A stretch of DNA of 64,000 nt from a virus. Below are positions 1,026-21,866 of the stretch, piece by piece. Where the stretch lies: positions 23,168 to 87,167 of IMG/VR virus record IMGVR_UViG_3300009703_002976. The stretch is one strand, 5' to 3'. Every line of letters begins with the position of its first letter. Position 1 is the first letter of the stretch. Made by a program: the position numbers and the translations under genes. The notes under the pieces are model-generated. The model ran no database searches and was not told the DNA's origin. It saw only the letters and a list, made by a program, of their open reading frames with translations.

Positions 1026-1602
1026 TCGAATAGGAAAATTGTTGGATCTGAATAAAATAAAAGAATTTTTTAACAGATCAGATAAAGAACAATTTGAATA
1101 TACAGGATTAGAACGTACAGATGGATTAGCAAATCATGGATATAGAGGATTAGGAGAAGAATTAGCGGCAAAGGAAAGTTATAATTTTTCAAGACATCAT
1201 GGATATAATCCTTTTGAATCTGAAGAAATTTTTGATTCTTTAGATGATATTGTTAGAAAATATTATGATGAAGATTTTGATGCAATTCTTAGAATAACAC
1301 ATTACCCTAAAATAAAATTAAAAATTACTGGCAATGATAGTGAAGGAGAAGGTGATAAAATTTTTAGATTATGTTCACATAAAGATTATGGTCCCCTAAC
1401 CTTATATTATGAATATACTCCCAATACAGGATTTCAAATTTTTAGAAATGAAGAATGGATAGATCCTGGATCTTGTATTATTTGGAATGAACTACATCGG
1501 GTAGTATATACAGATCCCATAAAAGAAAGATGGACTGTGACTTATCATGTAGATTATAAAGATTGTAAGATTTCAATGAATACTAGATTAGGAATAAAAT
1601 GA
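1018..1602 (+). CDS. 2OG/Fe(II) oxygenase, isopenicillin-N-synthase-like
   Basis: The 194-residue protein has the clearest oxygenase signature of the cluster. H121-K-D123-YGPLTL is followed by GFQIF, then W147 and PG150, and a distal H160-RV with R171. This order is typical of the C-terminal 2OG-Fe(II) domain of the IPNS/flavonoid-oxygenase type. The family oxidises, hydroxylates or cyclises small molecules. Canonical members are about 300 residues, so this is a short form with a reduced N-terminal half. It follows two other oxygenases and overlaps the next radical SAM gene by 4 bases (ATGA). The substrate cannot be inferred. Confidence 0.72.
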   Translation: MIDRIGKLLDLNKIKEFFNRSDKEQFEYTGLERTDGLANHGYRGLGEELAAKESYNFSRHHGYNPFESEEIFDSLDDIVRKYYDEDFDAILRITHYPKIKLKITGNDSEGEGDKIFRLCSHKDYGPLTLYYEYTPNTGFQIFRNEEWIDPGSCIIWNELHRVVYTDPIKERWTVTYHVDYKDCKISMNTRLGIK

Positions 1603-2417
1603 ATGAATTTACTTCTAGCAATCATATTAATTTTAGAGCCGCCCAATATAGTAATTTAAATTCTGTTTTAGGAATGTCTACTCTTGAAATAAATCCAACA
1701 GAACTTTGTAATAGGACATGTAGTTTTTGTCCCAGAGGAGATTGGTATCCCAATAAAAATGAACATTTATCAATAGATGATACATATTTAATTAAAAAAA
1801 GACTTGATGAATTTGAATATCAAGGAATTATTATTATAAGCGGTAAAGGGGAGCCTCTACTACATCCAAATATTTTTAAGATTGTTAATGTATTTAAAAA
1901 TGAATGGATAGAATTAATCACAAATGGTGATAATATATTAGAATCACCAGATATATTAGATAAATTGTTTGATAGCGGATTAAGTAGAATAATTTTAGAT
2001 GAATATGATAATGAAGAAAATTATAATAAAAAAATAGAAATTTTGGGCGATAGATGTGGAGTAGTAAAAAATCATTTTACAGGAATATTACAATCTTCAA
2101 TTTATAACAATAGATCGGGATCTTTTAAAACTATAGAAAAGTCATTAGATAGAAAATGTTATTTACCTTTTTATAAAGGATATATTGATTTGACCATGGA
2201 CCTTAGATTTTGTTGTAATGATTGGAAATATAAAGAAAGTTTGGGAAATTTAAGAGAAAATACATTAAAAGAACTTTGGATGTCTGATAAAATGAATAGA
2301 TATAGAAAAGAATTATCTAAAGGTAATAGATGTAATATAATATCGTGTAAAGAATGTGATGCAAATGGATTGTTATTGGGTGAAAATAGTTATAATGAAT
2401 TGATGGAGATTATATGA
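1599..2417 (+). CDS. Radical SAM/SPASM-type enzyme
   Basis: The 272-residue protein carries the radical SAM cluster motif C37-x3-C41-x2-C44 after a first strand (TLEINPTELC). It also has the glycine-rich SAM-binding motif (SGKGEPLLHP). The C-terminal part has a CC pair (FCCNDW) and more cysteines (RCN, SCKEC), suggesting an auxiliary SPASM-like iron-sulphur site. Such enzymes generate a 5'-deoxyadenosyl radical for difficult C-H chemistry on peptides, sugars or nucleosides. The gene sits between oxygenases and a CMP-sugar-synthetase-like gene, linked by 4-base overlaps on both sides. This is the first of ten radical SAM genes here. Confidence 0.85.
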   Translation: MNEFTSSNHINFRAAQYSNLNSVLGMSTLEINPTELCNRTCSFCPRGDWYPNKNEHLSIDDTYLIKKRLDEFEYQGIIIISGKGEPLLHPNIFKIVNVFKNEWIELITNGDNILESPDILDKLFDSGLSRIILDEYDNEENYNKKIEILGDRCGVVKNHFTGILQSSIYNNRSGSFKTIEKSLDRKCYLPFYKGYIDLTMDLRFCCNDWKYKESLGNLRENTLKELWMSDKMNRYRKELSKGNRCNIISCKECDANGLLLGENSYNELMEII

Positions 2418-3085
2418 AATATGCAATGATAGCTTGCAGACTTGGTAGCACAAGAGCAAAATTTAAAAATTTAGCATTAATAGGTGGAGAGCCCATGATG
2501 GCATGGGCTACAAAAGCCGCTCTTGAATCAAATTGTTTTGATAAAGTCATAATTAATGGAGATAATGATATTTTTAAGCAGATTGCAGAAGAATATGGTG
2601 TTGAATATTATGAAAGACCTATAGAATTGGGTTCATCTGAAACATTAATTGATGATGTATTTTATGATTTTATAGAAAAAAATCCATGTGAAACTGCCGC
2701 AATAGTAAATACAGTTAATCCTCTGCAAACAGGAGAAGAAGTTGCTAAAGCAATGGCTTATTATGAAGATAATAAATTAGATTCTTGTAATACATATGAA
2801 TTAAAATATGTTCATACGTGTTTAGGAGATACTCCTATTAATTTTGAATACGGTAAGATGTGTAAGACTCAAGATTTAGAACCTATAAAGTCAATAGCTT
2901 ATTCTGTTCAAATAGTAAGAACGAAAGTTTTTATGAAAGAAAAACATATTTTTTGTGGAAAACATGGAATGTATGGTCCTATATCAAAAAAAGCAGGAAT
3001 GTTAGTTAAAACTCCCGAAGATATTAAGATAATAAATGCTATATTGCATTATCATTCATCAATTGGATATTATGAGGGACGATAA
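2414..3085 (+). CDS. NeuA/KdsB-like cytidylyltransferase
   Basis: The 223-residue protein begins with a nucleotide-binding strand and the loop ACRLGSTRAKFKNL. This resembles the signature of acylneuraminate/KDO cytidylyltransferases, which couple CMP to an acidic sugar. The following GGEPMMAWA and the conserved spacing to INGDND and ERP also fit. The length is typical of the family (about 220-250). The expected product is a CMP-activated sugar or sugar-like acid that a transferase could use. The gene overlaps the aminotransferase downstream, suggesting the two act on one pathway. The exact sugar is unknown, and SpsF-type relatives remain possible. Confidence 0.72.
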   Translation: MKYAMIACRLGSTRAKFKNLALIGGEPMMAWATKAALESNCFDKVIINGDNDIFKQIAEEYGVEYYERPIELGSSETLIDDVFYDFIEKNPCETAAIVNTVNPLQTGEEVAKAMAYYEDNKLDSCNTYELKYVHTCLGDTPINFEYGKMCKTQDLEPIKSIAYSVQIVRTKVFMKEKHIFCGKHGMYGPISKKAGMLVKTPEDIKIINAILHYHSSIGYYEGR

Positions 3086-4028
3086 AAAACATATAAAACT
3101 TCTTAAACGTGAAAGATCAAAAGGAGTTAATAAAAAAGGACTACCATTAGATAAAAATGAAAGAATTATTCCATTTTCTAAATTTGAATTAGATGATTTG
3201 AGAAAACATTTGGGTACTAATCTTTGGAAATATCCTGATGTAGATGCATATTATAAAATTTTTGCCGATTGGTTGAAAATAGATGAAAAGAAATTATTTT
3301 TTACTGAAGGAGTGTCTGGTGCTATTAGGTCTTTAATGGAATTATATGCCTCAAAAACAGTATATTATGATACTCCTACTTATGCTATGTATGATGTTTA
3401 TTCTGAAATTTTTAATTTGATTCATGCTCCTATGGAAAATGCTGATATAATATTTTTACAAAATCCAAATATTCCTTATGGCACTACTTATAGTGAAGAT
3501 CAAATTCGTAAAATATGTTTACTTAATTCAATGAAATTAATTGTATTAGATGATGTATATTTCGAATTTAATATGCCAGATCATCTTTGGTTGATAGATG
3601 AAATTAAAAATTTGGTAATTATGAGAAGTTTTTCTAAAGCATTTGGATTAGCAAGTATTAGATTGGGTTATATAGTTTCAAATGAAGAAAATATTAAATT
3701 TATTTCGAATAATAGAAATGGATATGAAACTAATTTATTATCTTTACAAACGGCTCATTATTTTATTCGTAATGAATCAATAAAAAATAATTATATTAAT
3801 CAATTAAATTTTGGTCGTGATTATTTAATGGAACAATTGGATAGAATGAATATTGAAAGAGAAGGAGGATATTGTGGTAATTTTGTTTTTATTCGTACAG
3901 ATCCTAAAAATACAGACAAACTTGCGGAAAAAGGTATTCTTGTAAGAAAATGTGATGATGGTATAAGAGTAACATTGGGTCCTAGAAATGAAATGGAGAA
4001 ATTTATTGCTGTATTCAGAGACCTCTAA
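3072..4028 (+). CDS. PLP-dependent aminotransferase, class I/II (HisC/CobD-like)
   Basis: The 318-residue protein has fold-type I aminotransferase features. These are FFTEGVSGAI near the phosphate-binding loop, an Asn-Pro loop (LQNPNIPYG), VLDDVYFEF with the cofactor-binding Asp/Tyr, and RSFSKAFGLASIRLGY with the Schiff-base Lys (about K189). The pattern is closest to histidinol-phosphate aminotransferases and threonine-phosphate decarboxylase. An upstream ATG at 3036 exists, but the ATG at 3072 (MRDDKKH) gives a 14-base overlap with the previous gene, the common spacing here, and was chosen. Next to a cytidylyltransferase, it may aminate or decarboxylate a precursor before activation; that is inference. 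Confidence 0.75.
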   Translation: MRDDKKHIKLLKRERSKGVNKKGLPLDKNERIIPFSKFELDDLRKHLGTNLWKYPDVDAYYKIFADWLKIDEKKLFFTEGVSGAIRSLMELYASKTVYYDTPTYAMYDVYSEIFNLIHAPMENADIIFLQNPNIPYGTTYSEDQIRKICLLNSMKLIVLDDVYFEFNMPDHLWLIDEIKNLVIMRSFSKAFGLASIRLGYIVSNEENIKFISNNRNGYETNLLSLQTAHYFIRNESIKNNYINQLNFGRDYLMEQLDRMNIEREGGYCGNFVFIRTDPKNTDKLAEKGILVRKCDDGIRVTLGPRNEMEKFIAVFRDL

Positions 4029-4668
4029 TTTTGCTTTTTTCTTATGTCATAGTAATGCTAATCATTCTATTTGTATGGCTTTAGAAACTTTAATGGATCG
4101 TGAACACGATTATTCTTGGGACTGGGAAAATAGAAGCGAATATGGTTATAAACATGTATCACCATCGGGATTATTGTCTACAGATTCTTTTAATTTTAAA
4201 GAAATAATAGGAGACGAATGGTATGATTTAAAAAAAATAACTACTGTTAGAAATCCCTGGTCTCGATTATATGATTTTTATACTTGGCATTTTACTATAG
4301 AACGACCAATAAAAAAAATAGAACAAAAAATTTATGATTTTACAATATCAAAAAGTAGTTTTGATGAATGGATATCTTCTTTAGAAAAAGATAAAACTTT
4401 TGATTGGTGGGGAGAAATTTTTAATCAAGAAATTATGAGAAGACATTGTAATTATGTTATTAGATATGAGTATTTGAATGAAGATATTAATAATATATTT
4501 CCAGGATTAAAGATTCCTTCTGCATCTGTATCTCATCCTGGTCAATGGTATGCGGAAGACAATAAATATTTAATGACTATTAAAACTAAAAATATTATTA
4601 ACTATTTTTGTAAAGAAGATATTATAAATTACGAATATACATATGACGGAGAACAAACACTTAGTTAG
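3988..4668 (+). CDS. Sulfotransferase-like protein with degenerate PAPS loop
   Basis: The 226-residue protein contains TTVRNPWSRLYDFYTW at about residues 85-100. This is the 3'-phosphate-binding (3'-PB) signature of the Sulfotransfer_2 family of carbohydrate sulfotransferases. The N-terminal strand-loop-helix that normally carries the 5'-phosphosulfate loop (KTG-type) reads FFLCHSNANHSICMAL, so the conserved Lys/Gly/Thr are not seen. Sulfotransferase is the best fold call, but activity is uncertain. The start overlaps the upstream gene by 41 bases; a shorter start such as TTG 4006 is possible. Nearby glycan-type genes suit a sugar target. Confidence 0.55.
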   Translation: MKWRNLLLYSETSNFAFFLCHSNANHSICMALETLMDREHDYSWDWENRSEYGYKHVSPSGLLSTDSFNFKEIIGDEWYDLKKITTVRNPWSRLYDFYTWHFTIERPIKKIEQKIYDFTISKSSFDEWISSLEKDKTFDWWGEIFNQEIMRRHCNYVIRYEYLNEDINNIFPGLKIPSASVSHPGQWYAEDNKYLMTIKTKNIINYFCKEDIINYEYTYDGEQTLS

Positions 4669-5071
4669 AAAAGTGGGAGAAATAGATTTAGATAAATTGA
4701 TCGCCGCTTGTGAAGAACGTAGCTGGTTGAATCCCATTTTTGTTCATGATGATTCACCAAAAACATGGGAAGGTGGAGAGTTACCAGATATACTACAAGA
4801 AATTAGTGAAGAATTTAACGTTACTCAATCGAGAATACTATGTTTGCCTCCTTTGTCTACATTAGATTATCACATGGATTCTAATAATAGAATTAATATT
4901 CCTATACTTACTAATGATTATTGTTTTTTTATTTTTGATGATGTATTATATAAGTTTCCTGCAGATGGTAGTGTTTATTTAACAAATACTAAAGTTTTAC
5001 ATACTGCAGTAAATGCATCTTATACACATCGTTTTCATTTAATAGGTTTTACAGATGTTGAATTTGATTGA
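4643..5071 (+). CDS. Small 2OG/Fe(II) oxygenase-like (aspartyl hydroxylase-like) protein
   Basis: The 142-residue protein shows H77-M-D79 in a strand (TLDYHMDS), H120 (VLHTAV) and R130 (HRFHLIG). This has the order and spacing of a minimal jelly-roll oxygenase of the aspartyl/asparaginyl beta-hydroxylase type. It overlaps the sulfotransferase-like gene by 26 bases. It is the fourth oxygenase-like gene of the island and is separated from the first three by activation and transfer genes. The substrate is unknown, and a non-catalytic cupin cannot be excluded by reading alone. Confidence 0.5.
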   Translation: MTENKHLVRKVGEIDLDKLIAACEERSWLNPIFVHDDSPKTWEGGELPDILQEISEEFNVTQSRILCLPPLSTLDYHMDSNNRINIPILTNDYCFFIFDDVLYKFPADGSVYLTNTKVLHTAVNASYTHRFHLIGFTDVEFD

Positions 5072-5917: not shown

Positions 5918-7194
5918 AATGGACTGGTGATCCCAATTGGAATTATATTTTTGATGGCAGATTCTATACAAAAGAAGATTTAAAATGGATGGGGGCTAGT
6001 GAATCTCCGGGAGAAATATTAAAAACTCCTGAGGATTGGGATGCTTCTATAAAAAAATTAAGTGAAAAAACGGATCGATATACGTGTATATATGAACCAG
6101 TGAAATGGGAACGTAATGATGTATTAAAAAAAATTTATGAAAATATACATCCCGAAAATGCTTCAAATACATTTTATTGTAATGGAGATTTGAGACTTGA
6201 ACAAAATCATGAAAAATTATTAAAAACATATAATTTTGATTTTCGTATAAATGTATATACATTTCCATGGATACCTATACAATCTTGGATATGGAGAGAT
6301 AAAAAATATACAGAAAAAAGTGGAATGAAGGGATGTTTTGGAGATACGTATATAAAACATGCGAAATTAGATTATCATAAAAAGTATAAAATAGTTTGTC
6401 CAGTTAATCATCCAAAAATTAACAGAGTAATGACTTTAGGTAAATTTGCTCAACATCATGAATTTGCATATTCATTTAAAAATACTGATACTGTAAATAT
6501 TGATGGTTCTTTTAATGATGATGAGTTTTGGTATTATTTAACTCATGACATAGAATGTAGAGATAAGAAAAAATGGTCTTGGTCTAAAGATGGTAATTAT
6601 ATTGAAGGAGATGATTTTGTATTACCGGTTGATCATGGTATTAAATTTCCTATAAATGATTTTGATATTAGCACACAAAAAAGTTTAACAGATATATTAC
6701 AAGTCCCATCAGTTTGGCCCGAAGATTTACAAGAAAATGATTATCACAATTATTTTCCAACATTGGAATGGTTACAATCTCATATTGAACTAATACATGA
6801 AACTTATTGTGTTAATAGTGGTGTTTTTAGTGAAAAAACAGCTAAGGTAATCGGACTTCAAAAACCCTTTCTTACCATTGGTTGTCAAAATTGGTATAAG
6901 CATTTTAAATCTTTTGGATTTAAATTATATGATGAATTATTTGATTATACGTTTGATTCAATGCCTTCTTATAAAGATAGATGGGAAAATATTATGCAAC
7001 AATGTGAAAATATTTTAGAAACTTCACATGATGAATTGAATGATAAAATAGAAAAAATACAACCAAAACTTGACCACAATAAAGAAGTAATGAAAAGTAT
7101 TGGAAGATCATATATGAATAGAGTTGTTGATGCTTGGTTATTAGCTAATAGAATTCTATCACTTTCTTTTGGATTTGCAAATGATAAAAAATGA
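5914..7194 (+). CDS. Conserved marine-phage protein, possible glycosyltransferase-related
   Basis: The 426-residue protein has a C-terminal block, roughly residues 310-360. It reads VFSEKTAKVIGLQKPFLTIG, then a loop, FKSFGFKLYDELFD, Y-x-FDS. I recognise this block from memory as recurring in T4-like marine phage proteins of the 'E-KT...KPF...GF' type, sometimes labelled glycosyltransferase-like. The N-terminal 300 residues contain strands such as TFYCNGDLRL and IVCPVNHPKINRVM that could form a Rossmann-like half. No catalytic residue can be named. It sits before the amidinotransferase with a 14-base overlap. The family call is tentative. Confidence 0.5.
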   Translation: MKWTGDPNWNYIFDGRFYTKEDLKWMGASESPGEILKTPEDWDASIKKLSEKTDRYTCIYEPVKWERNDVLKKIYENIHPENASNTFYCNGDLRLEQNHEKLLKTYNFDFRINVYTFPWIPIQSWIWRDKKYTEKSGMKGCFGDTYIKHAKLDYHKKYKIVCPVNHPKINRVMTLGKFAQHHEFAYSFKNTDTVNIDGSFNDDEFWYYLTHDIECRDKKKWSWSKDGNYIEGDDFVLPVDHGIKFPINDFDISTQKSLTDILQVPSVWPEDLQENDYHNYFPTLEWLQSHIELIHETYCVNSGVFSEKTAKVIGLQKPFLTIGCQNWYKHFKSFGFKLYDELFDYTFDSMPSYKDRWENIMQQCENILETSHDELNDKIEKIQPKLDHNKEVMKSIGRSYMNRVVDAWLLANRILSLSFGFANDKK

Positions 7195-8161
7195 ATGGGA
7201 TAAATTAAAAGAAGTTATTGTAGGAATTTCATATTCTAATTGTAATATAAATGGATTAGATAGAGTTATTGAAGAAACAAATGAAGATTTGGATGATCTA
7301 GAAAATATTTTTAAAGATTTAGGAGTAACTGTATATCGACCAAATCAACCAAAATTTTCTTTAGATGTACATCATCCAATAATGCCTAGAGATATTTTAG
7401 GTTTTTTTGATGATGTAATTGTTAAAGCATATGGCGCAGTTTATTCACGTATTGAAGAACATAAATGTTATGAAGATATAATAAACGGACAATGTTTATT
7501 AGAAATGCCAGTTCCTAAAATAATTAAAACTGAGGAATATGAAATTGTACAAAATCATACGAATAAAATAAAAATGCAACAACGATATGATAAATATGAA
7601 GATGAAGTGCTTTTTGAAACTGCGAATATTTTGAAATGTAATGATATGTTATTACATACACAGACCGCCAGTAAAGATACTGCAAATGGTAAAGGAACAG
7701 AAAAAGGATTAAACTGGTTGAAATCAAAATTTCCTGAAAAACAATGGGTGGAAATTCCTGCAGGAGGACATGCAGATGGAAAATTAGCATTATTAAGAGA
7801 AGGTCTATTGTTGACTTGGAGAGAAGATTATATTCCTGATGAGTTGAAACATTGGGATAAAATAATAGTTCAGGATAATGCAGAGTTTCCTAAAGAATTT
7901 GTTGAGCAAAGAAAAAAACAATATTATACAGAATATGTAATGAAATATCTTTCTGATTGGGTTGGGTATGCAAGTGAAACTTGGTTTGATGTTAATTGTA
8001 TTTCAGTAGATCCTAATACGATTATTACTGTAGGTAAAAATAAAGAAAATATTAAACAACTTGAAAAATATGATATTAATGTAGTTGTATGGAATTATAG
8101 ACATCGTTATTTTTGGGATGGAGGGGCTCATTGTTGTACTCAGGACATATCAAGAATATAG
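7181..8161 (+). CDS. Amidinotransferase family protein (glycine/inosamine amidinotransferase-like)
   Basis: The 326-residue protein has the hallmarks of arginine:X amidinotransferases. MPRD lies at about 68-71, AGGHADGK has the catalytic His/Asp (about H197, D199), and the C-terminal GGAHCCTQD carries the nucleophilic Cys (about C318). It ends 'ISRI' as family members do, and the length is close to GATM/StrB/AmtA-type enzymes. The reaction would move a guanidino carbon from Arg to an amine. The ATG at 7181 is preferred over TTG 7169 because it restores the 14-base overlap typical here. It is the last gene before a short gap with a candidate late promoter. The acceptor is unknown. Confidence 0.8.
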   Translation: MIKNEWDKLKEVIVGISYSNCNINGLDRVIEETNEDLDDLENIFKDLGVTVYRPNQPKFSLDVHHPIMPRDILGFFDDVIVKAYGAVYSRIEEHKCYEDIINGQCLLEMPVPKIIKTEEYEIVQNHTNKIKMQQRYDKYEDEVLFETANILKCNDMLLHTQTASKDTANGKGTEKGLNWLKSKFPEKQWVEIPAGGHADGKLALLREGLLLTWREDYIPDELKHWDKIIVQDNAEFPKEFVEQRKKQYYTEYVMKYLSDWVGYASETWFDVNCISVDPNTIITVGKNKENIKQLEKYDINVVVWNYRHRYFWDGGAHCCTQDISRI

Positions 8162-8167
8162 CAGGAA

Positions 8168-8837: not shown

Positions 8838-10268
8838 ATGATTGATAAAGATCCTGAAAATCTCCCCTCATCTACTTTTTGTGCATTACCGTGGATGCAC
8901 ATTTCTACTCGCCCCAATGGACATATGCGTGTATGTTGTACTGCAAATGCATCCGCAGTACAAGATAAAGATTCAACAAATAAAACAATTTCAGAAGCAG
9001 GTGTTCTTAGGAGAGATGATGGAAAGCCTGCCAATTTAGCAACAACAAGTTTACTAGATGCATGGAATAATGAATATATGAAATCCGTGCGAAAGATGAT
9101 GCTTAGAGGTGAACGTCCTGCATCTTGTCTAAAATGTTTTAAGGAGGAAGATGCTGGACATAGATCAAAACGACAATGGGAAACAGCAAAATGGGTTAAC
9201 GAAATTGGACTTGAAGAAATTATTGATGAAACCACAGTTGAAGGAGCCGTTCCACCTAAAGTACGGTATATTGATCTTCGGCTTGGTAGTAAGTGTCAGC
9301 TTGCATGTGTTATGTGTAGTCCTCATGATTCATCTAAGTGGGTAAAAGAGTATAAAGAAATATATCCAGAAATAAAAAATCCTAGATTAAAAGATTCGCA
9401 ATTATGGGAAAAGGAATCTGGAAAATTAGCTTGGTCTGGTGGATCATATGCTTGGCATAAATCAAATCCCAATTTCTGGGAAGAATTTTATACTCAAGTG
9501 CCAACTCTTAAACAATTATATTGGGCTGGCGGTGAATCATTAATTATGAAAGAACATTATGAAGTTCTTGAAAAAATTATTGAGATGGGTTATGCTAAAG
9601 ATATTGAAGTTAGATATAATTCGAATGGACTTGAATGGGATTCTAATTTGTTTGATCTTTGGAAAGAATATAAGAATGTTATTTTTCATTTTAGTGTAGA
9701 TTCATATAAAGAAAAAAATCATTTCATTAGATATCCTTCTCGTTGGAAAAGAATTGTAAAACAAATGCATGTGTTAGATGATTATCCTCATGGTAATCTT
9801 AGATTGACAACAGCAACTACAATTACTGCTCTCAATATTTTTTATCTTCCAGAATTTATAAGTTGGAAATTAGAAGAAGATTGGAAATTACTTAATAAAT
9901 TTCCTGCTGGTGCTGGTATGATTGATTTGCATCTTGCATATTGGCCCCCCCAATTAAATTGTAAGGTATTACCTAAATGGTTTAAACGAGATGTAACTGA
10001 TAAATTCGAAGAGTTTTATCCATGGCTTGAAGAGAATTGGAAAAAATGTAATGGAGTTGAGGTCGAAAATATCGACTTCAAAGAGTGGAGAGAATTGCCG
10101 TATGGTATAAAAAGACTTGAGGGCCTTGTGTCTTTTATGAACTCTGAAGATTGGTCTGAAAGATTGCCCGAAACTGCTGAATGGTGTTTTACTATTGCAA
10201 AGACAAGAAACTTAGATTTTATAAAAATATTTCCTGATTTAGAATGGCTGGAGTGGTATGCAAATTGA
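8838..10268 (+). CDS. Radical SAM protein with N-terminal twitch/SPASM-like domain
   Basis: The 476-residue protein opens with FCALPWMHI (C15), a CC pair (C33, C34) and C97-x2-C100 (SCLKCFKEE). This is the arrangement seen in phage and bacterial 'twitch domain' radical SAM proteins. The core follows with C153-x3-C157-x2-C160 (KCQLACVMC) and a glycine motif WAGGES. It therefore probably binds the SAM cluster plus an auxiliary cluster. It overlaps the PP-loop gene downstream by 11 bases. Codon use seems slightly richer in G/C than neighbours. The reaction is unknown. Confidence 0.85.
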   Translation: MIDKDPENLPSSTFCALPWMHISTRPNGHMRVCCTANASAVQDKDSTNKTISEAGVLRRDDGKPANLATTSLLDAWNNEYMKSVRKMMLRGERPASCLKCFKEEDAGHRSKRQWETAKWVNEIGLEEIIDETTVEGAVPPKVRYIDLRLGSKCQLACVMCSPHDSSKWVKEYKEIYPEIKNPRLKDSQLWEKESGKLAWSGGSYAWHKSNPNFWEEFYTQVPTLKQLYWAGGESLIMKEHYEVLEKIIEMGYAKDIEVRYNSNGLEWDSNLFDLWKEYKNVIFHFSVDSYKEKNHFIRYPSRWKRIVKQMHVLDDYPHGNLRLTTATTITALNIFYLPEFISWKLEEDWKLLNKFPAGAGMIDLHLAYWPPQLNCKVLPKWFKRDVTDKFEEFYPWLEENWKKCNGVEVENIDFKEWRELPYGIKRLEGLVSFMNSEDWSERLPETAEWCFTIAKTRNLDFIKIFPDLEWLEWYAN

Positions 10269-11010
10269 AATTCCCAAAACAATACGTAGATTGAAACAAA
10301 AATTCATTGAAGAACTTTATTCAAAATATGAGGGCGAAGATGTTTGGAAAAATCTAAGACATTATAAAGACAAATGTTATGAAGAAAAGTTTGTAAATAC
10401 TATAGGTATTTGGATGTCGGGTGGAGCAGATAGTTCAATGTTAGCATATTTACTTGCTAAAAAAATTAAAGAAGAAAATTTAAATATAAAAATTCAACCT
10501 TTGTCTGTTAGAAGAGGAAGACCTAATAATCCAATATATGCTGGAAATGTTATAGATTGGATTGAAGAAGAATTAAATATTAAAATGAATGATCATATCA
10601 TATATTTTCCAGATATTACAGATAAGCATCAACGAGAAATAAAAGAATTTTGGGATAGAGATGATGAAAATTTTAGAAATGATTTATTTCAAATTCTTTA
10701 TTCTGGAATAACGTGTAATCCTCCTGTTAATGATAAAACTATTCCTTTAAATAAAGAACGTAGTAGAGATGAAAATGCGGATAGACCTTTAATATCAGAA
10801 AATGGAATTCGTTATTATTTAAATCCTTTTTTTGATATAAACAAAAAACAATTAGCAGAATTATATAAAGAAAATAATTTATTAAATACTCTTTTTTCTC
10901 AAACTTATAGTTGTGAGGGAGAGGCCGAAGACACTAAAACACATACTCAGCATTGTGAAAAATGTTGGTGGTGTCAAGAAAGATTTTGGGCGTTTGGAAG
11001 ATATGTATAA
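10258..11010 (+). CDS. QueC-like PP-loop ATPase
   Basis: The 250-residue protein has a PP-loop IWMSGGADSSML (S54-G-G-A-D-S59), the pyrophosphate loop of adenine-nucleotide alpha-hydrolases. The C-terminus has S-C219, then C233-x2-C236-x2-C239-x2-R242 and AFG. This is the order of the zinc cysteines and following Arg in QueC (7-cyano-7-deazaguanine synthase). QueC adenylates a carboxylate and converts it to a nitrile with ammonia. This protein may activate a carboxylate or nucleobase in the same way. A queuosine/DNA-deazaguanine pathway is not shown, because no QueD, FolE or DpdA is recognised. It is sandwiched between, and overlaps, two radical SAM genes. Confidence 0.78.
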   Translation: MQIEIPKTIRRLKQKFIEELYSKYEGEDVWKNLRHYKDKCYEEKFVNTIGIWMSGGADSSMLAYLLAKKIKEENLNIKIQPLSVRRGRPNNPIYAGNVIDWIEEELNIKMNDHIIYFPDITDKHQREIKEFWDRDDENFRNDLFQILYSGITCNPPVNDKTIPLNKERSRDENADRPLISENGIRYYLNPFFDINKKQLAELYKENNLLNTLFSQTYSCEGEAEDTKTHTQHCEKCWWCQERFWAFGRYV

Positions 11011-13224: not shown

Positions 13225-14198
13225 ATGTTATAGAAATAGAATTGTCATCTCTTTGTAACGCAAAATGTTCTGCATGTATGCGTACTATATTAGATGAACG
13301 TGGAAAATATTATTTAAAAGATAATTTGCCTTTGAATGAAATTGAATCGTGGTTTAATGACATAGATTTATCAAATACTAAAATAAAAATGTGTGGAGTA
13401 TTGGGTGATCCAATGATTAATCCGGAATTGCATGATATTGTTTTTTATTTTTTATATGAAAAACATGTAAGAGATATTGAAATGTCTACGAATGGTGGTA
13501 CTCGTACACTTGATTTCTGGAAAGAATTGGGTATGTTATCAAAAAATTCGAATAAAAGATTTTATGTTCATTGGGCTATTGATGGAGTTACAAAAAATGA
13601 CTATAGAGAAAACGTTGTACTCGATAGAGTATGGAATAATATTAATGCTTACCATTCTACTGGCGGCCATAGTATCTGGCAGTATATCATTTTTGATTAT
13701 AATGAAGACGAAGTTGAAATGGCCAGAGAAAAAGCAAAAGAAAATGGAATGAAATTTGCAACTCGTAAAAGTTGGAGAAATAATTCAGATTTTGCTAAAG
13801 TTAAATCTAGGGCCGCTAAAGAAATTGATGCTGAAAAGTATGAAGAAGTTGAAAAACGAGCATATGAGAAATCATATGAAGATGCAAAAATTGTATGTAG
13901 ACATAAAGTAAAAGGAGAAATATACATTGGTGCAAATAGAAGATTGTGGCCTTGTTGTCATTTATATGATGAAGATGTTGCTCAAAAAAATAATTCTATG
14001 AAACATTTATTTGAGTCTGTGGGACACAATTTTAATGATTTAAATAAACATAGTATAAAAGATATTTTATCTGGTGAGTGGTATAAAAAGACTTTAGAAG
14101 ATAGTTGGAATAAATTTCATCCTATGCATTTGCCTAGATGTTATTTGACATGTGGAGATGAAGGAAAACGAGCGGTTATTAAAAATGTGGAAAACTAA
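13212..14198 (+). CDS. Radical SAM/SPASM-like enzyme
   Basis: The 328-residue protein has C15-x3-C19-x2-C22 (LCNAKCSAC) at the N-terminus, then a degenerate glycine motif (CGVLGDPMINPEL). A C-terminal RLWPCCHLYDE pair with LPRCYLTCGDEG suggests an auxiliary cluster. Architecture and motifs closely match the following gene (14185) and 20799: cluster motif first, 'CG...DP' loop, C-terminal CC. The three are probably paralogues. A substrate cannot be named. It overlaps neighbours by 13 and 14 bases. Confidence 0.83.
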   Translation: MFKINVIEIELSSLCNAKCSACMRTILDERGKYYLKDNLPLNEIESWFNDIDLSNTKIKMCGVLGDPMINPELHDIVFYFLYEKHVRDIEMSTNGGTRTLDFWKELGMLSKNSNKRFYVHWAIDGVTKNDYRENVVLDRVWNNINAYHSTGGHSIWQYIIFDYNEDEVEMAREKAKENGMKFATRKSWRNNSDFAKVKSRAAKEIDAEKYEEVEKRAYEKSYEDAKIVCRHKVKGEIYIGANRRLWPCCHLYDEDVAQKNNSMKHLFESVGHNFNDLNKHSIKDILSGEWYKKTLEDSWNKFHPMHLPRCYLTCGDEGKRAVIKNVEN

Positions 14199-15114
14199 AA
14201 CAGTAGAATGGATCGATGTTGAATTAACATCATTTTGTAATATAGCATGTCCTGGTTGTTTGAGACAAGAAAAAAGAAAACAAGTAGATCATATTTTAGA
14301 TAAAGATATGATACAATTTTCTGATTTGCAAAAATGGATCAGAAAAGAAGATTTCCCTAATTTAAAATTGCTTAATTTTTGTGGATCTGTAGATGAGCCC
14401 ACAACACATCCTGAATTATTAGATATAGTAGAATATTTTTTAACATTTACAGAGATAAATATTGCATCCAATGGATCGACTAAGACAAAAGATTTTTGGA
14501 AAAAATTAGGAGAATATGGTGTATCTGTATTTTTTGGTATTGATGGTATAGATCAGAAATCGTTAGAGAAATATAGAATAGGTTCTAGTTTTAAAAAAAT
14601 ACAGGAAAATTATAGAGCATTTATTAAAGCGGGGGGTAATGCTACTTGGCAATTTATAGTATTTGAACATAATGAACATCTTTTGGAAGATGCAAAAGCT
14701 CTTTCAGAAAAAGAAGGATTTACAAATTTTAGAACAATATTTTCTCATAGAAAAGGAAGTGGAGAGATTGAAAAAAAGACAGTTGAAGAACAAGAGATAT
14801 ATTGTAAGTATGGACATCAAAAAAGACTTTTTATAAATCATACAGGAGCTTTGATACCATGTTGTTATTTAAACTCTGAAGCACTTGAATTACATGCTAA
14901 TGAAACTATTAAAACTAAATTTGGGACAAAATATATGGAATTAGATGGAGTGTTATCAAATAATCTTAAATATAATACAGTATCGGAAGTATTGAATGGA
15001 GAATTATTTAAATATATTATTGAATCTTGGAATGATGATCCAGTTGAAAAGTGTTGGCAAACATGTAAACAGAAAAAAAGAGATATTTTTATAGATGAGA
15101 AAGTAACATGCTGA
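14185..15114 (+). CDS. Radical SAM/SPASM-like enzyme (paralogue of neighbours)
   Basis: The 309-residue protein has C18-x3-C22-x2-C25 (FCNIACPGC) and a CGSVDEPTTHPELL loop corresponding to the SAM-binding glycine motif. A C-terminal CC pair (LIPCCYLN) and EKCWQTC follow. The ATG at 14185 gives a 14-base overlap with the upstream gene; the longer frame from 14152 would overlap by 47 bases and is not preferred. It resembles 13212 in motif order, including the middle phrase ATWQFIVFEHNE compared with SIWQYIIFDYNE there. It is a member of the ten-gene radical SAM set; the reaction is unknown. Confidence 0.83.
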   Translation: MWKTKTVEWIDVELTSFCNIACPGCLRQEKRKQVDHILDKDMIQFSDLQKWIRKEDFPNLKLLNFCGSVDEPTTHPELLDIVEYFLTFTEINIASNGSTKTKDFWKKLGEYGVSVFFGIDGIDQKSLEKYRIGSSFKKIQENYRAFIKAGGNATWQFIVFEHNEHLLEDAKALSEKEGFTNFRTIFSHRKGSGEIEKKTVEEQEIYCKYGHQKRLFINHTGALIPCCYLNSEALELHANETIKTKFGTKYMELDGVLSNNLKYNTVSEVLNGELFKYIIESWNDDPVEKCWQTCKQKKRDIFIDEKVTC

Positions 15115-16454
15115 CTTGTTTTTACGCCCTTGGTGGAATTAATTATAAAAATGGAGTTATAACAACTTGTCCAAGACAAGCAAATCAATTAGTATTTGCT
15201 CATGAAACAATATTGCCCTCAGAAATATTTAATCATAAAAATTTTAAAGAACTTAGAAAATCATTATATCAAAATAAATGGCCTAGTGGATGTGATACAT
15301 GTGAGAATATGGAACAGGTAGGAGCAAAGTCTATGAGAAAAGATTATGTTTTAAATTCTGATAATTTTTTTCATAAGCCACAAAAAGACGATTATTCGGA
15401 CGGAGATCCACAAAAAAATAAATTAAAAGATGAAAAAACAGAAATAAGATTATATGATTGTTATAATCCTATAACACATGAAGTAAACACAAAAGGATTG
15501 CGACATGTTGAGTTTAGATTTAGTACGGCTTGTAATTTTTCTTGTTTACATTGTTCAAAAGTTTATTCCTCGGGATGGACTAAAAAATTACGTAATTATG
15601 AACCCGATCAAGAAGTTATACTAAATGATTTAAGACAATTGTTAGGAACAGAACATAGACATGGCCCAAATGATAGAAATGAAATGTCTTTATCTATTGA
15701 AGAATCTTTAAAAATTGTAGAAGACCTGAATGAAAATTTTCCATTATTACAATATGTGGATTTTGCAGGAGGAGAATTACTATATCAAAAGCAATTTTTT
15801 CCCACATTGAAAAAATTAGCAGATCATCCTAATGCAAAAAATATAAAAATATCTTTTCATACAAATTTTAATGCTGATTTTGATGTTGCACTTTTGTCTA
15901 AACATCTGGAATGTTTTGGCTCTTCAGCAATAATAATATCTGTTGATGCGGGTAAAACATTTTATTCTTATTTTAGAAATGGGGGTGAATGGGACAAATT
16001 GAAAAATAATATTCAAGAATTTAAAAAAATAAATGATTTTACTTGGGTTGATATGAGTTGTACAACTTCAATTTATCAAATGTTGGATATATATGATGTT
16101 TTTGATTCGTTTTATGATTTGAATTTAAACTTTGATGCATCTATAGTTCAAACTCCACAATATTTGGATCCGTCATTAATACTTTATGATTTTTATGATG
16201 AGACTATGAAAGATATTGAAAAAACATATGAGTTAATTGAAAAAAGACAAAAAAATCCTGAAGGAAAAAGTGATTATTCAAAATATTGGTTTAATTATAT
16301 TGTGGATTATGTAAAGCAAACGAAAATAAGTTATAATAATTTTAATAGATTTTTAATATATCGAAAAAAATCAGATGAGATTTGGAATCAAGATTTTAAT
16401 GATTATTTTGAAAATTATCAAATCGAAAATAATGAATTAGTGAGAGTTAAGTGA
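15108..16454 (+). CDS. Radical SAM protein with N-terminal twitch-like domain
   Basis: The 448-residue protein has an N-terminal twitch-like region with C4 and C21 (TTCPRQ) and C62-x2-C65 (GCDTCENME). The CC pair of its relatives is reduced to one Cys at C21. The radical SAM core has C142-x3-C146-x2-C149 (ACNFSCLHC) and FAGGELLYQ. A long charged insert of about residues 85-125 separates the halves. It overlaps the preceding gene by 7 bases and the next by 4 (GTGA). Same family as 8838, 12136 and 17705; substrate unknown. Confidence 0.82.
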   Translation: MLTCFYALGGINYKNGVITTCPRQANQLVFAHETILPSEIFNHKNFKELRKSLYQNKWPSGCDTCENMEQVGAKSMRKDYVLNSDNFFHKPQKDDYSDGDPQKNKLKDEKTEIRLYDCYNPITHEVNTKGLRHVEFRFSTACNFSCLHCSKVYSSGWTKKLRNYEPDQEVILNDLRQLLGTEHRHGPNDRNEMSLSIEESLKIVEDLNENFPLLQYVDFAGGELLYQKQFFPTLKKLADHPNAKNIKISFHTNFNADFDVALLSKHLECFGSSAIIISVDAGKTFYSYFRNGGEWDKLKNNIQEFKKINDFTWVDMSCTTSIYQMLDIYDVFDSFYDLNLNFDASIVQTPQYLDPSLILYDFYDETMKDIEKTYELIEKRQKNPEGKSDYSKYWFNYIVDYVKQTKISYNNFNRFLIYRKKSDEIWNQDFNDYFENYQIENNELVRVK

Positions 16455-17518
16455 AATTAAGTGAATATGATTTTACCAAGATACCTTGGAATAAAATTGA
16501 ACGAGTTGGGACTTGGAAGATGCTGGAGTCTGACTTATTTACAGTTTCATGGTTGTTAGGGAGATTTTGTAATTATAGATGTTCATATTGCTGGCCATAT
16601 GCAAGAAGTAATACTAAAGATCATCGTCCTGTGAAATTATGTCTCAATACAATTGATGAAATTAAACGACAGGCCAGAGAAAGAAATTTTAATTCCTTTC
16701 ATTTTAGTCTATCTGGAGGTGAGCCCACTTTTCATCCAGCATATCTTGATATACTTGAACATCTTGCAGATGATGTAGTATACACTAATTATTCATCTGT
16801 CCATATGACTTCAAATTGTTCTCGACCTATGAAGTGGTTTGAACGATATGTTGAGTCAGCAAAGAAATTTTCAAGAGCATCTATTACTGCATCATTTCAT
16901 CGTGAATATATTACAAAAAATAAACTTAATGATTTTGCAGATAAACTTGATTTTTGTCAACGTAATGGTGTAAGAGTAACAATTAATTCTGTAATGGTAC
17001 CAGAAAAATTTGATGAAATATATAAAGACTTATTGTATTTTTATGAACGAGGCATAAACGTAACACTTAAACCACAAAGTGATCCTACTGCATCATTTGT
17101 TGTTGATGGATATTCTGAAGAACAGATGCAAGTATTGCATAATGGTATGCCTCAGATTACAAACATGGAAGTTAAATCAAAAAAACTTCAAAACATTCGT
17201 CAAGAATTTGAAATTGTTATGAATGATGATGAAGGAAAAGAGTGGTATCTTGATCAAGCAGAAAGATTTAATGCATTTAATTTTAATAATTTTAAAGGAT
17301 GGACTTGCTCTACTGGTTATCGTAGTTGCATTATTCGTGAACCTGATGGAAGCATTAAACGATCTTATTCTTGTGGAGATGCTCCTTTAGGAAATATAGA
17401 AACAGGATTTAAATTATTTGATTCGCCTGTGATATGTACTACAAATGCGTGTGTAAGTTCTGCTGATAGTAAAATTCCTAAAAAGAAATCTAATTGTACC
17501 TTACCATTATGGAAATAG
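16451..17518 (+). CDS. Radical SAM enzyme
   Basis: The 355-residue protein starts at GTG overlapping the previous stop (GTGA). The cluster motif is C40-x3-C44-x2-C47 (FCNYRCSYC), preceded by TVSWLLGR as in 11003, and followed by LSGGEPTFHP. C-terminal cysteines (WTCSTGYRSC, SYSCGDAP, CTTNAC, NCTLP) suggest an additional cluster. It resembles 11003 in lacking the N-terminal twitch region. Base composition seems slightly less AT-rich than adjacent genes, a possible sign of separate acquisition. The reaction is unknown. Confidence 0.83.
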   Translation: MKLSEYDFTKIPWNKIERVGTWKMLESDLFTVSWLLGRFCNYRCSYCWPYARSNTKDHRPVKLCLNTIDEIKRQARERNFNSFHFSLSGGEPTFHPAYLDILEHLADDVVYTNYSSVHMTSNCSRPMKWFERYVESAKKFSRASITASFHREYITKNKLNDFADKLDFCQRNGVRVTINSVMVPEKFDEIYKDLLYFYERGINVTLKPQSDPTASFVVDGYSEEQMQVLHNGMPQITNMEVKSKKLQNIRQEFEIVMNDDEGKEWYLDQAERFNAFNFNNFKGWTCSTGYRSCIIREPDGSIKRSYSCGDAPLGNIETGFKLFDSPVICTTNACVSSADSKIPKKKSNCTLPLWK

Positions 17519-17718
17519 ATAATATTATAAATGATTATTCTTTGAGAGAATTACAAATTATTTCTTCAAGAATATTATCAGAACATGAAGCTACAAATAA
17601 TTTTATAAAACAATTTAAAGCAGATCATGATAGTCATCAATTTTATAAAAACGTTATTAAATGGTATATTGAAAAATATAAACATTTTCCTGAATTGAAA
17701 AAATATGATTCCTTCTAA
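17509..17718 (+). CDS. Small helical protein between radical SAM genes
   Basis: The 69-residue protein (MEIDNIINDYSLRELQIISS...) begins at an ATG overlapping the upstream stop by 10 bases. It ends 14 bases inside the next radical SAM gene. It is highly charged and predicted mostly helical, with no cysteine and no recognisable domain. It is the only small gene embedded inside the radical SAM array. A role as partner protein, recognition element or peptide substrate is conceivable, but nothing in the sequence shows which. Confidence 0.5.
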   Translation: MEIDNIINDYSLRELQIISSRILSEHEATNNFIKQFKADHDSHQFYKNVIKWYIEKYKHFPELKKYDSF

Positions 17719-19234
17719 AGATAATACTTTTTGTTTTTATCCTTTTTATGCCATGGTTTTTAAACTATGGAAAAAGAATAGTAATGAATTAAGAGCAGTT
17801 GCACCATGTTGTATGATGCATGACACTAAAGATATAACAGGAATTAAAATAGATGTTTCATATACTGCTACAAATCCTGTGGTTATTACAAGTATAAATC
17901 ATGAATTAATTGATGATGATAAAATAGAAATTTATGAAGTAAATGGAGATGGAGTTGATGTGGGGCCATATACAGTAACAGTACTTTCTTCAGATACATT
18001 TTCTATTCCTGAAGATGCTACAAAGGGCAATGTTGGTAAATTGAATTATCATATGAGAGAACCGAATTCAATTTTAACTAGAAGAGATTTAAAAGGATTG
18101 TCTCCTCATGATATTTTTCATCATAAAAAATTTGAAGAATTAAGAAAAAACTTACTTAATAATGTGCGGGATTCTCGTTGTTCCACATGTTGGAATCAGG
18201 AAGATTTGGGAATAATGTCTCATAGAATGTATACACGATGGCAATTTCCAGAAAAATTTAAAACAAGTTTAAAAGAAATAGACATATCAATATCTAATAA
18301 GTGTAATTTAGCATGTAGAATGTGTAATACAGGATCTTCACATCAACTAAATGAAGATGTGAATAAATTAAGAAAAAATAATAAATTGCTTTTATTTGAA
18401 GAAGTTTCAGATAATGGTTTAGGATCACTTAATTTACCATTGGATGTTAAAAATAATCATTTAATACAATGGATATATCACAATACTGATAAAATAAAAA
18501 TTTTAAAAGCATCTGGAGGAGAGCCACTATATGATAGAAATATATTAAATTTGTTAAGAAAATATGTGAAAGATGGTAATAGTAAATCAACAGAATTACA
18601 ATTCCATACAAATGCAATGTTAATAACAGATAAAATTATTAAACTCATGGACGAATTTAAATTACAAAGACATTCATTTAGTATAGATGGAGTTGATAAG
18701 ACTTATAATTACATAAGACATAAAGCAAATTTTTCGATTTTAGAAAAAAATATTAAAAATTGGTTTAACAAATCTAATAACATTTATGCAGTAAATATTA
18801 ATTTAGTATTGTCTGCGTTAAATATAGGTAATGTTGTTGAGTTTTTGGAATGGACAGCTTTGATGTTTCATGATAAGATTAGATGTAATGTTTTTATTTC
18901 TGAAGTGCGGCCTCATGGTAGAGGACTCGATATTGCAAATTTACCAATCTCTTATTTAGAAAAAATACGAAAAGATATTATAGAATATAGAGATGGTTTT
19001 GAAACATTTAGAACTAAAATATATAATTATATGCATAAAGGAAATTTTTTCCATTATGAAATTGATAAATTATTATCGTTAATTGATCATGCAATAACAA
19101 ATAATGTATGTGATATTTTTCGTTTATATACTGAAATAACATTATTAGATGAAACAAGAAATCAAAGTTATAAAAATTTTTTAGATTCTTCTTTAGTTTC
19201 TATTTTAGAAAACTATGAATCGCAAGAAAAATAA
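17705..19234 (+). CDS. Radical SAM twitch-type protein with inserted structural-protein beta-domain
   Basis: The 509-residue protein opens FCFYPFYAM (C10) and has a CC pair (C35, C36). It later has C159-x2-C162 (CSTCWNQE) and C200-x3-C204-x2-C207 (KCNLACRMC) with SGGEPLYD, so it is a member of the twitch-type radical SAM family. Residues about 48-116 are an extra block not seen in its relatives. The block (VSYTATNPVVITSINH... SSDTFSIPED...KLNY) closely matches residues 283-348 of the structural protein at 51307. It looks like an FCCH-type beta module inserted in a loop after the CC pair. The enzyme motifs on both sides remain intact. See the hunt section for this fusion. Confidence 0.85.
   Translation: MIPSKDNTFCFYPFYAMVFKLWKKNSNELRAVAPCCMMHDTKDITGIKIDVSYTATNPVVITSINHELIDDDKIEIYEVNGDGVDVGPYTVTVLSSDTFSIPEDATKGNVGKLNYHMREPNSILTRRDLKGLSPHDIFHHKKFEELRKNLLNNVRDSRCSTCWNQEDLGIMSHRMYTRWQFPEKFKTSLKEIDISISNKCNLACRMCNTGSSHQLNEDVNKLRKNNKLLLFEEVSDNGLGSLNLPLDVKNNHLIQWIYHNTDKIKILKASGGEPLYDRNILNLLRKYVKDGNSKSTELQFHTNAMLITDKIIKLMDEFKLQRHSFSIDGVDKTYNYIRHKANFSILEKNIKNWFNKSNNIYAVNINLVLSALNIGNVVEFLEWTALMFHDKIRCNVFISEVRPHGRGLDIANLPISYLEKIRKDIIEYRDGFETFRTKIYNYMHKGNFFHYEIDKLLSLIDHAITNNVCDIFRLYTEITLLDETRNQSYKNFLDSSLVSILENYESQEK
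17855..18049 (+). repeat. Dispersed domain repeat, copy 1 (FCCH-like module in a radical SAM gene)
   Basis: This stretch aligns codon by codon with 52153-52350 in the large structural gene. It includes identical DNA strings such as attacaagtataaatcat and tcagatacattttctattcc. About two thirds of residues are identical by eye, with only a few small gaps. It is an intra-genomic copy of a beta-domain. Confidence 0.85.
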
Positions 19235-19994: not shown

Positions 19995-20847
19995 TTATTG
20001 GGAAACAGGTTATTTTAAAAAAAAGAATCTTAGATTTGTATTTCCAGTAAATCAACCTGGACTGGGTGATAGATTTATCATGGCCTCAAATATTCTTTTT
20101 ACTATGAAAGAAGTTGAACACGAATCTTGTATTGTTGATATTTTTCTTAAAAACACAAAGACGGTGCATAAAAGCCAGTATTTAAATCTTATAGATTTTT
20201 ATGATATTATAGATTTTTTTCATTTTAAAAGACCAGATGAAAGTGAATCATCAATAATTACAAATATAATAGATGAAGCTCCTCCTACATATAAAGAGAT
20301 ATTGGCTTCAAAACGAAAAAATATTACAGGTGATGTTGCTTGTCATGATTTTAATTCTAGATATAATGAATATGTTATAAGTAATTATTTTCTTTATAAC
20401 GAAGCACGATATTGGCCTATAAATTATGATAAAACTGCAAAAAAGCAACTTATAACATTTATGTTTTATGTAGATGATTCAGTACCCGAACATAAATTTA
20501 TCACAACAGAGGAAGAAAAAGAATTTAATAAGGTAAAAGATTATTATGGACATTATTTTCATCGACATGAATATTATTTTGTTCGTTTAGAAGATTTTAA
20601 TTATAAAAGAAATATAGAATTATTATCTAAAAGTTTGTTTTTAATAGCATCAGAAGGAATGTGGACCCATTTATCTAGAGCAATGAAAGTTAATACCATA
20701 GCATATTCTAGGGATATTACTTTTATTGAGGAATTTAATAAACAGGGACATTTTTGTTCTGGATTTTTTGAAAAATGTTTAATTGAATTAGAAAAAAAAT
20801 GTATAGAATTAAAAAAGAAGAGCAACTTTATAAGTTTGAAGAGATAA
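19978..20847 (+). CDS. Glycosyltransferase-like protein, tandem paralogue 2
   Basis: The 289-residue protein is a tandem duplicate of the preceding gene. It shares NLRFVFPVNQPGLGDRFIM, a DIIDFFHFKRP block and SEGMWTHLSRAM. It differs by an extra N-terminal stretch (MNHRSSYWETGYFK), an insert near residues 105-125 and another near residue 195. Divergence in the middle suggests altered acceptor specificity; the conserved ends fit a retained fold. It overlaps the upstream gene by 17 and the next by 49 bases, the longest same-strand overlap in the island. Confidence 0.5.
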   Translation: MNHRSSYWETGYFKKKNLRFVFPVNQPGLGDRFIMASNILFTMKEVEHESCIVDIFLKNTKTVHKSQYLNLIDFYDIIDFFHFKRPDESESSIITNIIDEAPPTYKEILASKRKNITGDVACHDFNSRYNEYVISNYFLYNEARYWPINYDKTAKKQLITFMFYVDDSVPEHKFITTEEEKEFNKVKDYYGHYFHRHEYYFVRLEDFNYKRNIELLSKSLFLIASEGMWTHLSRAMKVNTIAYSRDITFIEEFNKQGHFCSGFFEKCLIELEKKCIELKKKSNFISLKR

Positions 20848-21866
20848 AACATATACATTTTGAACCTACGCAAAGATGTCAGGCGGCGTGTCCTATGTGT
20901 GATAGAACTAATAATCCACATATAAAAAATGCTGAACTTTCTATAGAACAATTTAAACAAATTGTAAATGCTAATTTAGCAAAACAATTAAATAGTTTTC
21001 TTATGTGTGGTAATCATGGAGATCCTATGATTGCAAAGGATACCCTTGAAATGTTTGACTGGTTACGCTATAATAATAATGAACTATATCTTCATATGAC
21101 TACAAATGCTGGAGGACGATCTGATGATTGGTGGAAAAGACTTGCGGAAATTTTTGGTGATTATGGAAAAGTATCTTTTTCAGTAGATGGTTTAGAAGAC
21201 ACAAATCATTTATATCGAGTAAATGTAGATTGGAATCGTGTTGAAAATTCAATGGATGTTTTTACTCAAGCAGGAGGAAAAGGTTATTGGGTATTTTTAA
21301 TATTTGAACATAATGAACATCAAGTAGAAGAAGCAGAACGAATGGCTAAATTATTTGGACTTGAATTTGTGAGAAAAAAGTCTGGAAGATGGGTGCAAAG
21401 TTATAAAAATAAGAAAATTGACAAAAAGATAACCACTAAGGGGAATGAGATTAAGCCACCAGCTAATCCAGAGAATCAGAATAAGAGTGTTAACAGTTAT
21501 GATAAATTGATTAAAAGTCATGGTTCCTTTCAAGAGTATTTAGATAAAACAAAAATAAAATGTAAGTCAATAGATACTAAAGAAATTTTTATTTCAGCAG
21601 AAGGTCTTGTGACTCCTTGTTGTTGGACTGCTGGAAAATTATATAAAGTATATGAAAAAATAGGACAAAATCAAATATGGTCTTATATAGATGATATTAA
21701 AAATATTAATGCTTTATATAAACCTTTAAATGAAATTATTGAAGGAGATTTTTTTAAAAAGATTAAACAATCTTGGAATTTGCCTTCTTGTTCACAAGGA
21801 AAATCAAAAGTTTGTGCAGAGAAGTGTGGTACTGATTTTAACGCATTTGCAGATCAATGGAAATAA
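20799..21866 (+). CDS. Radical SAM/SPASM-like enzyme
   Basis: The 355-residue protein has C27-x3-C31-x2-C34 (RCQAACPMC), an MCGNHGDPMIA loop matching those of 13212 and 14185, and a C-terminal CC pair (LVTPCCWTAG) with CAEKCG. It also shares the phrase YWVFLIFEHNEHQVEEAERMA with 14185, so it is a third member of that paralogue set, now separated by glycosyltransferase-like genes. A Lys/Asn/Pro-rich insert occupies about residues 205-235. The ATG lies 49 bases inside the upstream gene; no later ATG precedes the cluster motif. Confidence 0.83.
   Translation: MYRIKKEEQLYKFEEIKHIHFEPTQRCQAACPMCDRTNNPHIKNAELSIEQFKQIVNANLAKQLNSFLMCGNHGDPMIAKDTLEMFDWLRYNNNELYLHMTTNAGGRSDDWWKRLAEIFGDYGKVSFSVDGLEDTNHLYRVNVDWNRVENSMDVFTQAGGKGYWVFLIFEHNEHQVEEAERMAKLFGLEFVRKKSGRWVQSYKNKKIDKKITTKGNEIKPPANPENQNKSVNSYDKLIKSHGSFQEYLDKTKIKCKSIDTKEIFISAEGLVTPCCWTAGKLYKVYEKIGQNQIWSYIDDIKNINALYKPLNEIIEGDFFKKIKQSWNLPSCSQGKSKVCAEKCGTDFNAFADQWK

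Follow-up and report, generated by a model that had tools for sequence, protein, structure and literature searches.

Several phages with many genes for radical S-adenosylmethionine (SAM) enzymes are already known. The Campylobacter T4-like phages CP220 and CPt10 (Firehammervirus) were reported in 2010 to encode 11 and 12 radical SAM proteins, respectively, and, while otherwise 96% identical, each has a differing cluster with an amidinotransferase (PMC2853527). A marine T4-like environmental genome of 183 kb, TARA_ERS488813_N000010, was reported in 2017 with 12 radical SAM genes (PMC5332604); that work treated them only as iron-sulfur (Fe-S) proteins and did not describe gene order, a module or a function, and we liken it to our locus by description. 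In pelagimyophages, a host recognition cluster described in 2020 places radical SAM cassettes in large hypervariable islands with glycosyltransferases (PMC7029224). Here we analyze a related locus in IMG/VR virus record IMGVR_UViG_3300009703_002976, using a stretch of 64,000 nucleotides (the window; record positions 23168-87167) for which a sequence-only reading had proposed a biosynthetic or decoration pathway with ten radical SAM enzymes. Genes are named by their start coordinate in the window.

Our recount in CP220 gave 11 Radical_SAM matches and clusters in which an amidinotransferase gene accompanies five radical SAM genes. This T4-like phage is similar in that an amidinotransferase and at least five radical SAM genes share a region that varies between close relatives. 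The radical SAM and amidinotransferase proteins of the two are detectably related, at about 18-32% identity. However, CP220 infects Campylobacter, carries a QueD-like gene and has no carbamoyltransferase or DegT gene, and no homolog of the 8838 type was found in it. The island of Pelagibacter phage Mosig resembles ours in having glycosyltransferases, radical SAM genes, a carbamoyltransferase, a DegT-type aminotransferase and nitroreductases, but Mosig has 2 Radical_SAM matches in 141 kb, compared with 13 in our record. Moreover, the pelagimyophage cluster lies between VrlC and gp14, whereas the borders of ours are a PD-(D/E)XK nuclease gene and gp59/gp32. KVP40-like Vibrio phages have radical SAM genes related to 12136, but in one to three copies and at 22-29% identity. 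New here are a conserved module, what looks like exchange of alleles at fixed positions, and split radical-SAM/SPASM pairs, none of which we found described earlier in the open-licence literature.

Radical SAM genes and the extent of the island

All ten radical SAM open reading frames (ORFs) are present where they had been placed, retain CX3CX2C and exceed the PF04055 gathering cut-off of 29.5 bits (30.1-58.4 bits). The ORF list opens two of them at GTG codons (10913 and 14152); orthologs agree with the ATG codons at 11003 and 14185. The three proposed subtypes are recovered, and a fourth can be added. Proteins 8838, 12136, 15108 and 17705 exceed the cut-off of 170 bits for NF033640 (N-terminal twitch radical SAM). 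In 13212, 14185 and 20799, CGxxGDP or CGSVDEP replaces the SAM-binding GGE motif and the C-terminus has CC. A multi-cysteine region at the C-terminus is seen in the alignments of both 11003 and 16451. The fourth type is 1599, a classical SPASM protein with SGKGEP; the GGE motif is present in the other six of the ten. Structure prediction gave one usable model: for 8838, the AlphaFold2 model (pLDDT 81) has radical SAM enzymes as its best matches in the PDB, while the model of 11003 was too poor for fold comparison. Viperin was considered for 11003 and 16451 and rejected (NF038283, 38.8 and 44.0 bits against a cut-off of 180).

The genes lie in overlapping frames, as had been noted. Between 1599 and 24785, 25 of 27 junctions are overlaps, of 4-50 bases, and the remaining two are gaps of 52 and 24 bases. 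In a scan for promoters and terminators, candidate sites did not exceed the level in shuffled sequences. Such crowding of radical SAM genes is more than chance would give; isolate phages with homologs of 12136 have one to three such places.

While the gene positions were right, the 20 kb first assigned to the island are too narrow. The record has 87,167 bases, and a profile search of it gave 13 Radical_SAM matches, 3 of them upstream of the window. The island occupies about 57 kb, from the nuclease gene at record position 1421 to gp59 at record position 58666, and thus continues for about 23 kb upstream and 13 kb downstream of those 20 kb. It is a biosynthesis island fixed between replication genes and gp59/gp32, and its borders are identical in two relatives, G051 and G056. 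The phage is marine and T4-like, with gp59, gp32 and T4-like baseplate genes downstream of the island. No close DNA relatives of the record were found among isolate phages; the nearest isolate for gp6 is Mosig, at 40% identity.

A conserved module and discordant slots

Judged by gene order in relatives, the 20 kb consist of a conserved module and a variable arm. The right part, 8838-21866, is syntenic in eight other marine phages (G043, G046, G047, G048, G050/G051, G055, G056 and P161), where the order 8838, PP-loop, 11003, 13212, 14185, 15108, 16451, 20799 and then the glycosyltransferase-like 21857 is kept with small rearrangements. Gene 12136 recurs with the module but shifts position between phages. 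The left part, 1599-8161, occurs for the most part only in the close relatives G043 and G044; moreover, slots vary independently and the island is longer in both directions, so the 20 kb cannot be upheld as one complete pathway. The companion claim that these are not isolated auxiliary genes does hold, in that the module genes, 12136 included, recur in largely the same order even in phages whose major capsid protein shares just 63% identity with that of a phage closely related to ours.

Nor are the radical SAM genes mostly scattered singly in relatives. Records picked by a homolog of 8838 (n=34) have 1-22 radical SAM matches each, with at least two in 33, and records picked by a homolog of 16451 (n=37) have 1-13 each, with at least two in 35; the two sets share one record. 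Because each record was selected for carrying one such gene, these counts address clustering and not frequency among all phages. Relatives picked by gp6 are mostly fragments of the structural region without the island, and therefore neither support nor refute it.

One carrier, P161, is a 161-kb phage contig in a metagenome-assembled genome (MAG), with a gp32 that is 99% identical to that of our record. Bacterial donors of 8838 were considered, and the only candidates were two MAG contigs (80-91% identity), of which the 161-kb one has T4-like structural genes and is a phage. The GTDB MAG contigs that carry the island are labeled Chloroflexi (161 kb; a T4-like phage grouped into a bacterial bin) and Acidimicrobiaceae.

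Between the distant carriers P161 and G051, 8838 (76% identity), 11003 (70%) and 20799 (71%) exceed the major capsid protein gp23 (63%) in conservation, and 16451 equals it (63%); DNA polymerase and TerL are 51% and 61% identical. Ratios of nonsynonymous to synonymous substitution rates (dN/dS) of about 0.1-0.2, which are rough since dS is often near saturation, suggest that the core module genes are under purifying selection.

Phages that are otherwise close diverge strongly in the PP-loop gene, 12136 and 13212. The rank correlation of the similarity matrix with that of 8838 is 0.81 for 11003, compared with 0.37 for the PP-loop gene, 0.16 for 13212 and 0.15 for 12136. For instance, the identity of 13212 is 54% for the pair G000 and P161 and 85% for the pair P161 and G048, the values of 8838 for the same pairs being 90% and 85%. 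These discordant slots fit an apparent exchange of alleles in place.

Upstream of the window, record positions 3182-5158 contain two short radical SAM genes that lack SPASM, followed by two SPASM-only genes, in the nested order A-B-b-a. The split is kept, in varying gene order, in G044, G045, G046, G047 and G050/G051, and its persistence in several relatives with differing gene order means that it is not a sequencing error. These sequences suggest that the split genes encode two-subunit radical-SAM/SPASM enzymes.

Neighboring enzymes

Coordinates of the module, its neighbors and the right border are given in Table 1. The amidinotransferase 7169 keeps HxD and GGxHC, with the catalytic His and Cys, while the position of the Asp is less clear. 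The substrate of StrB is an aminocyclitol phosphate. The cytidylyltransferase had been called NeuA-like; PseF is the nearest curated family, and its cut-off is not reached.

Table 1. Features of the window, with positions in window coordinates and the evidence for each assignment.
Position	Strand	Feature	Evidence
1599..2417	+	Radical SAM/SPASM protein, variable left arm	PF04055 43.9 bits, SPASM 33.9 bits; identity 85-87% in G043/G044, 48% in G051
2414..3085	+	Cytidylyltransferase, nearest curated family PseF (pseudaminic acid)	PF02348 57.6 bits; TIGR03584 55.8 bits, below cut-off 205.7
3036..4028	+	HisC-like class I/II aminotransferase	PF00155 83 bits; TIGR01141 169.6 bits, below cut-off
3988..4668	+	Sulfotransferase-like protein	phrog_3347 'Galactose-3-O-sulfotransferase' E 1.1e-5
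4643..5071	+	Asp/Arg-hydroxylase-like oxygenase	PF05118 22.5 bits, slightly below cut-off 22.6
7169..8161	+	Pentein amidinotransferase, StrB/AGAT type	Nearest solved structure inosamine-phosphate amidinotransferase 1bwd, E 5e-16
8838..10268	+	N-terminal twitch radical SAM, conserved core member	NF033640 397 bits; 77-95% identity among ten phages
10258..11010	+	QueC-like PP-loop ATPase, four-Cys stretch at C-terminus, divergent in place	PF06508 27.2 bits vs. 22; allele classes
11003..12139	+	Radical SAM, C-terminal multi-Cys region, core member	PF04055 38.7 bits; 74-90% identity among ten phages; invariant CCGGRC and CxxxxCxCxxC
12136..13224	+	N-terminal twitch radical SAM, divergent in place	NF033640 236 bits; 35-90% identity among carriers
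13212..14198	+	Radical SAM, CGxxGDP motif and C-terminal CC, discrete alleles	PF04055, motif, identity matrix
14185..15114	+	Radical SAM, CGSVDEP motif, SPASM-like C-terminus	PF04055; 32% identity to a CP220 radical SAM, E 2e-19
15108..16454	+	N-terminal twitch radical SAM, CP replacing CC in twitch	NF033640 199 bits; alignment
16451..17518	+	Radical SAM, four invariant C-terminal Cys, core member	PF04055 58.4 bits; 11-sequence alignment; 40 viral loci
17494..17718	+	Small protein, adjoins radical SAM genes in several relatives too	Synteny
17705..19234	+	N-terminal twitch radical SAM with 70-aa in-frame insertion	NF033640 209 bits
19215..20847	+	Two paralogous genes, GT9-glycosyltransferase-like by eye only	32-52% identity copies in several relatives
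20799..21866	+	Radical SAM, CGNHGDP motif and C-terminal CC, core member	PF04055; 68-97% identity among most carriers, 42-46% in G048
21857..22579	+	Glycosyltransferase-like, 3' of radical SAM module in relatives too	phrog_1962 glycosyltransferase E 6e-5; synteny
29209..31875	+	Glycosyltransferase and FkbM methyltransferase fusion	PF00534, PF05050
31862..35275	+	Multidomain glycosyltransferase (GT2, group 1, GT9)	PF00535, PF00534, PF01075 above cut-off
35499..37005	+	Right island border: T4-like gp59 and gp32	PF08993/PF08994 and PF08804

Upstream of the window, in addition to the two split radical SAM genes, the record encodes a KedN5-like B12-binding radical SAM protein, a fifth N-terminal twitch protein, a second amidinotransferase, a NodU-type carbamoyltransferase, a DegT aminotransferase, a tryptophan halogenase, a nitroreductase and an AMP-ligase fragment. 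A carbamoyltransferase occurs in 19 of the 35 records searched for it, and an amidinotransferase in 16 of 37, including CP220 for the latter. Some carriers, e.g., G056 and G060, have Fe-S assembly genes (IscU, A-type carrier), which would aid maturation of many Fe-S enzymes there; at G056:C1:137942-139914, IscU adjoins two genes for A-type Fe-S carrier proteins.

Two further observations concern individual genes. The insertion of about 70 amino acids (aa) in 17705 has 78% DNA identity to window positions 52144-52354, within the gene of a 1313-aa protein in the baseplate region; it resembles a virion-protein segment and is absent from the orthologs of 17705 in relatives. A mobile domain was considered for it, and no further copies were found outside orthologs of the virion protein. 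Separately, five genes open with a GDS-type motif and look SGNH-hydrolase-like by eye (L001 5143-7532; L002 2146-3054, 8525-9268); the four of these that were searched had no Pfam match.

Possible products of the island

Our preferred explanation, to which we assign a probability of roughly 45%, is that the module is the heart of the island and that its eight or nine radical SAM enzymes, together with the PP-loop ATPase, would make amino-sugar or cyclitol-like units for a surface glycan. Tailoring of an amino sugar or glycan is the most economical reading because the island encodes a StrB-like amidinotransferase, a PseF-like cytidylyltransferase, a carbamoyltransferase, a sulfotransferase-like protein and glycosyltransferases. 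The sequences establish gene identities, cofactor motifs, synteny, conservation and discordant alleles; we infer action in one pathway, its chemistry and its target, and we base the decoration role on the neighboring genes. Under this proposal, the phage would make such units during infection: the radical SAM and twitch enzymes would perform oxidations, epimerizations or C-H functionalization, the PP-loop enzyme and the aminotransferase would add nitrogen, the StrB-like pentein would add an amidino group, and carbamoyl-, sulfo- and methyltransferases would cap positions. The PseF-like enzyme may then activate the sugar, which glycosyltransferases would mount on the virion or the host surface. 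The conserved slots would supply a common scaffold and the swapped slots would vary its decoration. It is possible, though we regard it as doubtful, that the phage has its own assembly line, in which eight or nine cooperating radical SAM enzymes are maintained like structural genes and yield a chemotype unknown from cells that is varied by allele swapping in fixed positions.

It is important to emphasize that several points weigh against the glycan explanation. No island enzyme has a solved ortholog, and no complete nucleotide-sugar pathway was recognized in the 87-kb record. The amidino-, carbamoyl- and cytidylyltransferases lie outside the universal module, and neither G051 nor our record has Fe-S assembly genes. 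The glycosyltransferase labels of 19215-20847, 23719-24288 and 24782-27354 were given by eye and have no profile support, the 19215-20847 pair having no Pfam or PHROG match. Finally, swapping in place also fits mosaicism without a common product.

Such mosaicism, i.e., unrelated auxiliary genes gathered at a recombination hotspot, might further be seen in the left arm, which is largely specific to two relatives, and in the several slots that differ independently. However, module order and purifying selection persist across phages with 63% capsid identity, and we therefore consider a mosaic unlikely. A diffusible, natural-product-like small molecule that acts on the host or on rivals, rather than a surface decoration, would give a role to the tryptophan halogenase, AMP-ligase fragment, nitroreductase, KedN5-like B12 radical SAM protein and StrB-like amidinotransferase that share the island. 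Against this, no carrier protein, non-ribosomal peptide synthetase, polyketide synthase or exporter was recognized among the annotated island genes, and glycosyltransferases continue in the same overlapping gene string, which makes this alternative similarly improbable.

The radical SAM enzymes could also modify a peptide or a virion protein, e.g., by cross-linking side chains of a tail protein, as in the maturation of ribosomally synthesized and post-translationally modified peptides. Peptide maturases often have SPASM and twitch domains, and in both sequence and fold 8838 comes closest to SkfB, but the TM-scores to SkfB are just about 0.3. No precursor-like gene was found among the module ORFs of at least 60 aa in the overlapping gene string, and the sole small conserved ORF, 17494-17718, is without a Cys-rich core. 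One relative does encode a Cys-rich protein, with CDCxYCTC repeats, in its structural region (P161 98878-99411; L169 from 18878); it had no match in isolate phages or in the other sequences examined, and, confined to P161, it was rejected as a substrate on which to base this reading. We judge peptide or protein modification to have a low probability. DNA or nucleotide hypermodification, e.g., of the 7-deazaguanine type, seems very unlikely to us. QueC acts after QueE, and the PP-loop gene adjoins a radical SAM gene and encodes a QueC-like C-terminus; a QueD-type PTPS gene is also present in G056, G060, G071, G073, G076 and CP220. However, the QueC-like label is justified at the level of PF06508 and not as QueC itself (TIGR00364, 26.8 bits against a cut-off of 150.3), none of the ten radical SAM proteins reaches a QueE cut-off, and PTPS is absent from our record, G051 (167 kb) and the P161 contig.

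The auxiliary genes that phages carry usually encode lone enzymes derived from a host. The Fe-S enzymes of this island form a set whose order and apparent purifying selection persist despite strongly diverged capsids, and which therefore probably gives the phage something that it needs. If a surface glycan is made, the conserved and swapped slots would offer a direct way into coat diversification or the exclusion of rivals. If not, the island would be a source of uncharacterized radical SAM chemistry.

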